Assembly (NCBI RefSeq): GCF_964340395.1
Contig: NC_135569.1
Coordinates: 4,916,540-4,980,539 of the forward strand
DNA from: Glandiceps talaboti
Taxonomy: Eukaryota > Hemichordata > Enteropneusta > Spengelidae
Direction: 5' to 3'
Length of the DNA: 64,000 bases
Position 1 is the stretch's first letter, and each line of letters opens with the position of its first letter. Below, one piece after another: positions 22,993-52,242 of this stretch. The notes beneath the pieces were generated by a model. It searched no databases and was not told where the DNA came from. It saw only the letters and a list, made by a program, of their open reading frames with translations. A program made the position numbers and the translations under genes.

Positions 22993-23126
22993 CTAAACAT
23001 TGGCATCAGCATCATTGTCTTTAAGTTCTATTTGCTCCCACGATGAAGATAAGTTGAAAGTCCCATTTATCTGGTCACGCATATTTATTTCATCTTGAGA
23101 GACAGGGCGAGACACTGCTTTGTAGA
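22993..23126 (-). CDS. GPCR exon 31: terminal coding exon
   Basis: It encodes [18 protein letters not shown] and an acidic Ser-rich tail ending DADANV, then TAG. No class I PDZ-binding end is visible. Confidence 0.82.

Positions 23127-52242: not shown

Follow-up and report, generated by a model that had tools for sequence, protein, structure and literature searches.

In a 64,000-nucleotide stretch of DNA from the hemichordate Glandiceps talaboti (hereafter called the window), we find a 31-exon gene whose predicted product joins the signalling half of a latrophilin to an ectodomain containing a lectin domain, a LamG module, mucin-like linkers and kringles. We consider it highly probable that this is a single latrophilin-line gene, a dispersed paralog of a gene cluster on another contig (C7), whose ectodomain was enlarged by the shuffling of phase 1-1 exon modules. 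A preliminary description of the locus had proposed a latrophilin-line adhesion G protein-coupled receptor (GPCR) with SUEL, LamG, kringle, HRM, GAIN and 7TM domains, and this proposal is borne out by Pfam matches, by the open frame and by similarity ranks against the vertebrate latrophilins (ADGRL).

Gene structure and domain content

Rebuilt from the raw sequence, the receptor gene lies on the minus strand and extends from an ATG at 52242 to the last base of a TAG stop codon at 22993. All 30 of its introns are of the GT-AG type, intron phases agree across every junction, and the spliced frame of 4,518 nt is divisible by three and encodes 1,505 amino acids. Our model reproduces the coordinates and exon count of the preliminary description, and corrects the length given there (4,509 nt), which falls 9 nt short. 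The sequence therefore confirms the 31-exon receptor as a real gene, presumably read into a single transcript. When two of the three unspliced frames of the region 22900-37000 are compared with Pfam, neither yields a receptor domain: one is blank, and the other shows a LINE endonuclease domain and weak matches. The receptor domains are missed in unspliced frames because the exons are short.

All exons listed below are on the minus strand and were placed by the splice model. Exon 1 (52170..52242) supplies the ATG start and, as judged by eye, a putative signal peptide (aa 1-24). The SUEL lectin domain is divided between exons 2 (51175..51418) and 3 (49692..49807) and is matched by Pfam (SUEL_Lectin, PF02140, aa 62-141, E 1.7e-10, 41.6 bits against a cut-off of 31.4). 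Ten symmetric phase 1-1 exons then fill the stretch between SUEL and HRM. These begin with a Ser/Thr-rich linker (exon 4, 47688..47813) and a whole LamG module contained in one exon (exon 5, 44934..45566), which is further identified by Pfam (Laminin_G_3, aa 252-386, E 1.9e-8) and by a search of the organism's own genome. A short linker called s1 (exon 6, 44825..44854) and two mucin-like linkers called m1 (exon 7, 44265..44387) and m2 (exon 8, 43922..44047) precede kringle 1 (K1; exon 9, 42545..42820), which is recognized by Pfam and by searches of structure sequences and of the own genome. Kringle 2 (K2; exon 10, 41639..41914) has the same sequence as K1 and was assigned by repeat comparison, and comparison of the duplicates identifies the last three exons of the series, s1b (exon 11, 41176..41205), m1b (exon 12, 40616..40738) and m2b (exon 13, 40268..40396), as copies of s1, m1 and m2. 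No domain match covers the linker exons or the signal-peptide exon, whose support comes from frame, phase and splice sites.

The remainder of the protein is identified by both Pfam and matches to solved structures, up to the end of the 7TM domain. HRM is encoded by exons 14 (38959..39069) and 15 (38509..38615) and matches at aa 775-832 (E 6.5e-7). GAIN (PF16489, aa 852-1064, E 8.6e-29) occupies exons 16-19 (36117..38144, comprising 38144-37944, 37474-37294, 36637-36485 and 36304-36117). GPS (PF01825, aa 1091-1133, E 4.9e-16), with an HL/T site and the sequence TNFAVLV, occupies exons 20-21 (34815..35303, comprising 35303-35251 and 34935-34815). The 7TM domain (7tm_2, PF00002, aa 1148-1390, E 3.6e-57) is spread over exons 22-28 (24789..31031, comprising 31031-30928, 29208-29106, 28831-28678, 27955-27874, 26676-26610, 26021-25921 and 24957-24789), and exons 29-31 (22993..24368, comprising 24368-24246, 23729-23669 and 23126-22993) encode the cytoplasmic tail and the stop codon.

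A Pfam-A search of the spliced protein thus finds seven families in one chain, each above its curated cut-off, and these matches are far beyond chance; three more families appear at E <= 1, all under their own cut-offs. The search recovers the complete domain set proposed earlier, namely SUEL, LamG, two kringles, HRM, GAIN, GPS and 7TM. GAIN and GPS are followed in order by a class B 7TM domain, as expected of an adhesion GPCR. The kringle family (PF00051) matches two stretches, the better at aa 499-576 (E 9.9e-35), with profile positions 2-77 of 79 aligned and six cysteines visible by eye. Neither the olfactomedin (OLF) domain of chordate latrophilins nor the somatomedin B domain of the amphioxus kringle group is among the ten Pfam families at E <= 1. 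The LamG exon has no relative by sequence among solved structures, and a single-sequence fold model reaches a pLDDT of 34 and does not confirm the LamG fold.

The window contains several other elements. Remains of a non-LTR retrotransposon are located at 31228-34519, in the intron between the second GPS exon and the first transmembrane exon. A minus-strand frame of this element contains a GDVELNPGP stretch, which we take to be a 2A-like motif, together with a LINE endonuclease domain (PF03372) and weak other matches in the same frame, and a reverse-transcriptase-like frame is visible by eye on the plus strand. Tandem arrays are present at 4786-9517 (repeating every 374 bp or so, with copies that are about 98% alike and a match of about 85% to the reverse complement of the array itself) and at 16189-16989 (units of about 54-60 bp, about 84-94% alike). 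A minus-strand open frame of 131 aa at 20703-21095, starting MTSPFQSRDIYKMAEDNPAELVID, perhaps belongs to the next gene as its first exon.

Relationship to latrophilins

Kinship was judged by similarity ranks among the sequences of solved structures. The 7TM domain scores 270 bits against ADGRL3 and 256 against ADGRL2, followed by E5 (195), D1 (192) and L4 (186). The HRM-GAIN-GPS segment scores 169 bits against ADGRL3 and 157 against LPHN1, and the next family is represented by CELSR1 at 63 bits. By these ranks among solved structures, both segments are closest to ADGRL1-3, and alignment reveals that the receptor and ADGRL3 have HLTNFAVL in common at the GPS. We therefore assign the signalling half to the latrophilin line. 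An N-terminal SUEL (RBL) domain, matched by PF02140, is also present. Taken alone, this domain is closest among solved structures to the rhamnose-binding lectin CSL3 (49 bits) and to another rhamnose-binding lectin (40 bits), followed by ADGRL3 (35 bits). Like the vertebrate latrophilins ADGRL1-3, the receptor combines an N-terminal SUEL domain with an HRM-GAIN-GPS-7TM core, an HL/T site and the sequence TNFAVL. Unlike them, it lacks OLF, and the stretch from SUEL to HRM is occupied by LamG, mucin-like linkers and kringles.

The closest relatives within the genome (590 Mb in 47 contigs) are clustered on contig C7. An HRM-GAIN-7TM query gave 70 matches, and besides the gene itself these include exons of the C7 cluster (25.745-25.892 Mb) that are 48-79% identical; the remaining matches are 24-40% identical, except for a transmembrane exon at C15:5.236 Mb (55%), and the ranking of paralogs by single exons is rough. 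In tblastn pieces, the C7 paralogs are 41-81% identical to the receptor from HRM to 7TM and 29% identical in a SUEL piece. One of them reads SUEL-EGF-HRM-GAIN-GPS-7TM, and its 7TM domain, joined from tblastn segments, scores 298 bits against ADGRL3. Another reads SUEL-HRM-GAIN-GPS-7TM, where SUEL is represented by its second part and HRM follows it without an intervening module. In the EGF-bearing paralog, phase-1 introns, as read by eye, bound the second SUEL exon, the EGF exon and the first HRM exon wherever these exons face the module region.

A profile scan (E <= 0.1) of the SUEL-to-HRM stretches of these two paralogs found no OLF, LamG or kringle. The preliminary description had supposed that the new modules replaced a domain at the olfactomedin position. 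This is not supported, because no OLF was found between SUEL and HRM in the two C7 paralogs scanned, and because PMC6422961 places OLF in chordates. There, OLF is described as arising only in early chordate evolution and as confined to chordate latrophilins.

Several further observations concern SUEL sequences in this genome. Additional matches at C7:25,777,196 and C7:7,328,601-7,330,611 are followed, on the same strand, by further exons of latrophilin type. In one latrophilin-like C7 paralog there are two candidates for the second SUEL exon (C7:25859444 and C7:25860300), and the GPS exon is doubled (C7:25867762 and C7:25867883). Nearly 30 SUEL matches with almost equal scores form a large tandem array at C7:18178247-18200583, in steps of about 789 bp. 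The own-genome SUEL scan (93 matches) omits the receptor gene, whose SUEL domain spans two exons.

Origin and timing of the inserted modules

Outside the window, the kringles closest to those of the receptor are three at C22:14.882-14.884 Mb, which are 81-84% identical; the others are at most 58% identical among the 148 matches listed. The C22 kringle exons are phase 1-1 by eye and lie 930-940 bp apart, and a F5/8C (discoidin) domain follows downstream on the same strand, apparently within the same gene. Nucleotide similarity between this region and the window is almost restricted to exons. The closest LamG sequences outside the window are five exons at C26:4.88-4.91 Mb, 76-83% identical (40 matches). 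The kringle family is large in this genome, with at least 150 matches, many of them clustered on C18 and C26.

LamG and kringle exons are often neighbors. Among the matches listed, a same-strand kringle lies within 10 kb of nine of the 40 for LamG (seven outside the window, at five loci); 0.14% of strand positions have a kringle within this distance. We considered one LamG-kringle gene as the donor of both modules and set this candidate aside, given that the closest LamG is at C26:4.88 Mb and the closest kringle at C22:14.88 Mb. Since these are different loci, separate acquisition of the two modules appears likelier than a single joint event.

Co-location with 7TM domains was counted among the matches listed (150 for kringle, 150 of at least 152 for 7tm_2 and 40 for LamG). 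For four of the 150 listed 7tm_2 matches, a listed kringle is no more than 150 kb away, and two of these four belong to the receptor gene. The other two, also among the matches listed, are at C10:12.43 Mb (kringle 40 kb away on the opposite strand) and at C10:13.97 Mb (a 610-aa open frame with a kringle 122 kb away on the same strand), and we take both pairs to be separate genes. Three of the 40 LamG matches have a listed 7tm_2 match on the same strand no more than 100 kb away; two are those of the window and the third is at C24:13.51 Mb. At this third locus (C24:13451862-13512341), a distance of 60 kb separates a LamG exon from an open 7tm_2 frame of 630 aa on the same strand.

Divergence was estimated by a simple method (Nei-Gojobori with Jukes-Cantor correction) on short exons, and the dS values are noisy. 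Between the receptor and the C7:25.87 paralog, dS is 1.37 and dN is 0.21 (346 codons; eight of the 15 exons that span HRM to TM6-7), and comparison with the C7:25.89 paralog gives 1.26 and 0.22, respectively (five exons, 220 codons). Single exons compared with C7:25.87 range in dS from 0.49 (the second GPS exon) to saturation (three exons), and two exons with low dS lead us to suspect gene conversion among the C7 genes. For the receptor kringle against the three C22 kringles, dS is 0.20-0.28, dN is 0.09-0.10 and dN/dS is 0.32-0.50, and K1 and K2 have zero differences. Because dS to the paralogs far exceeds dS to the C22 kringles, and because K1 equals K2, we infer that the latrophilin duplication came first, followed by acquisition of the kringle and then by its tandem doubling. 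The kringle may have passed in either direction between the C22 gene and the receptor gene.

According to the exon-shuffling reading that we favor, phase 1-1 exons encoding LamG, the Ser/Thr-rich linkers and the kringle would have entered the phase-1 stretch that separates the SUEL exons from those of HRM, at the place where one C7 paralog carries its EGF exon. The kringle would have been gained after the paralogs split, and its exon would have doubled later still.

Internal duplications and the number of kringles

The two kringle exons are embedded in two tandem blocks of 909 bp on the minus strand (41502-42410 and 42408-43316). Each block holds a single kringle exon; the two are 100% identical and have 3 bases in common where they meet, corresponding to a 906-bp tandem unit. 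A second local duplicate (39846-41540 versus 43534-45198) includes s1, m1, m2 and a truncated LamG exon, and its copies are 97-100% alike in exons and 87-100% alike in introns and flank. The truncated LamG copy (41286..41567, minus strand) retains residues 114-210 of the 210-residue module, has lost the original acceptor and stands outside the 31-exon model. We considered it as an extra exon and rejected it, as any acceptor in the right phase would retain at most the final 63 codons. The sequence that precedes each kringle exon (41955-42409 and 42861-43319) resembles a repeat in intron 1 (51595-52062) at 94%, with 41955-42409, a part of the 906-bp unit, aligning to 51595-52058; a mobile piece may thus have been involved in the move or the doubling of the kringle.

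The count of two kringles is provisional because both exons sit in a perfectly identical tandem repeat. Perhaps the receptor is real and has one kringle only, with K2 and the repeated linkers being recent allelic duplications or assembly artefacts. The complete identity of the blocks, which includes the intron between the kringles, their 3-base overlap and the similar duplication of the adjoining LamG-linker block would all fit such an origin. We nevertheless regard it as rather unlikely, since other genes of this genome also contain duplicated exons: the C7:25.87 paralog shows two candidate second SUEL exons along with its doubled GPS exon, and the C22 gene carries its three kringles at regular spacing. 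Moreover, the window is free of N runs.

Alternative transcripts or separate genes

Skipping of any subset of exons 4 to 14 would leave the frame unchanged, because all are phase 1-1. LamG, the linkers and the kringles might therefore be alternative cassettes, such that the main product is a short SUEL-HRM-GAIN-7TM receptor, of which the long form represents a splice variant. We assign this arrangement a minor share of the probability. The dN/dS of the kringle relative to C22 is compatible with selection on a translated kringle, although part of this constraint may have acted on the C22 side. Far less probable is a pair of adjoining genes, with a secreted SUEL-LamG-kringle protein upstream of a short HRM-GAIN-7TM receptor: LamG and kringle do cluster at the five loci noted above, but here frame and phase continue with no stop from the SUEL, LamG and kringle exons into HRM-7TM, and a separate 5' gene is unlikely because SUEL precedes HRM-GAIN-7TM in the same order in two C7 paralogs.

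Predicted ligand recognition and signalling

The preliminary description had suggested that the new modules would change the ligand set, perhaps to a glycan together with a protein. Sugar-binding SUEL domains carry a signature composed of YGR and DPC motifs. The receptor has YGQ and DDC at these positions, and the C7:25.87 paralog retains YGR and DPC, along with KYL. Since the signature is lost, the sugar site is probably altered, and sugar binding by the receptor SUEL domain is doubtful.

The classical lysine site of kringles is formed by Asp55, Asp57, Trp62, an aromatic residue at 64, Arg71 and an aromatic residue at 72. Aligned with plasminogen K1, the receptor kringle has Ala55, Asp57, Trp62, Tyr64, Glu71 and Trp72, such that one acidic residue and the basic residue are lost. 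With the site partly lost, classical lysine binding is doubtful and contact with a protein surface is likelier. The receptor kringle resembles those of plasminogen and HGF (71.5 bits to plasminogen kringle 5), and differs from them in being membrane-bound and in keeping the lysine site only in part.

We propose that the GAIN domain would cleave itself at HL/T, after which the long outer fragment, comprising SUEL, LamG, the mucin-like stalk, the kringles and HRM, would remain attached. This fragment would bind partners on neighboring cells or matrix via LamG and kringle, rather than through sugar binding by SUEL. Pull or release would then expose the TNFAVLV tethered agonist to the 7TM domain, and signalling would proceed as in latrophilins. 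Self-cleavage, the tethered agonist, the ligands and latrophilin-type signalling are all predicted here from sequence features. The fuller proposal is a kringle-bearing latrophilin whose head was rebuilt after the paralogs split, with a LamG module drawn from the large LamG family and a kringle from the kringle-discoidin gene placed in the phase-1 SUEL-HRM stretch, with the old lectin decayed and with recognition taken over by the new modules. We give this proposal an even chance.

Relation to known receptors and implications

Invertebrate latrophilins are reported to carry extra EGF, Ig, LamG and FN3 domains (PMC6422961, available part). The receptor is like the invertebrate latrophilin-like receptors covered there in having RBL, HRM, GAIN and 7TM domains, in lacking OLF and in bearing extra modules; it is unlike them in that the text on their extra domains names no kringle. 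Kringle and somatomedin B occur in an adhesion GPCR expansion of ten genes in amphioxus, where the lectomedin (latrophilin) group is counted as missing (PMC2246102, available part). Those receptors share with ours a kringle in the ectodomain, and differ in that ours lacks somatomedin B. An adhesion GPCR with a kringle is therefore not new in kind. Kringle also appears in a list of adhesion GPCR domains in the accessible part of PMC12716839, and a term search of the first 300,000 of the 412,533 characters of PMC13197933 returned no mention of it. We found no kringle-bearing latrophilin in the open literature searched. The SUEL-LamG-kringle-HRM-GAIN-7TM architecture combines known parts in a new way and does not amount to a new kind of receptor, and we did not find it in the print sources searched.

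If our reading is correct, this would be the first described kringle-bearing latrophilin, as far as the literature searched shows. It also offers a roughly datable domain exchange in an adhesion GPCR, in which the signalling half is constrained (low dN relative to dS) and the half presumed to bind ligands is altered in units of entire phase-1 exons. The receptor lends support to the idea that the 7TM portions of latrophilins are coupled to heads that can be exchanged; it also suggests that not every latrophilin need have teneurin and FLRT as its ligands.
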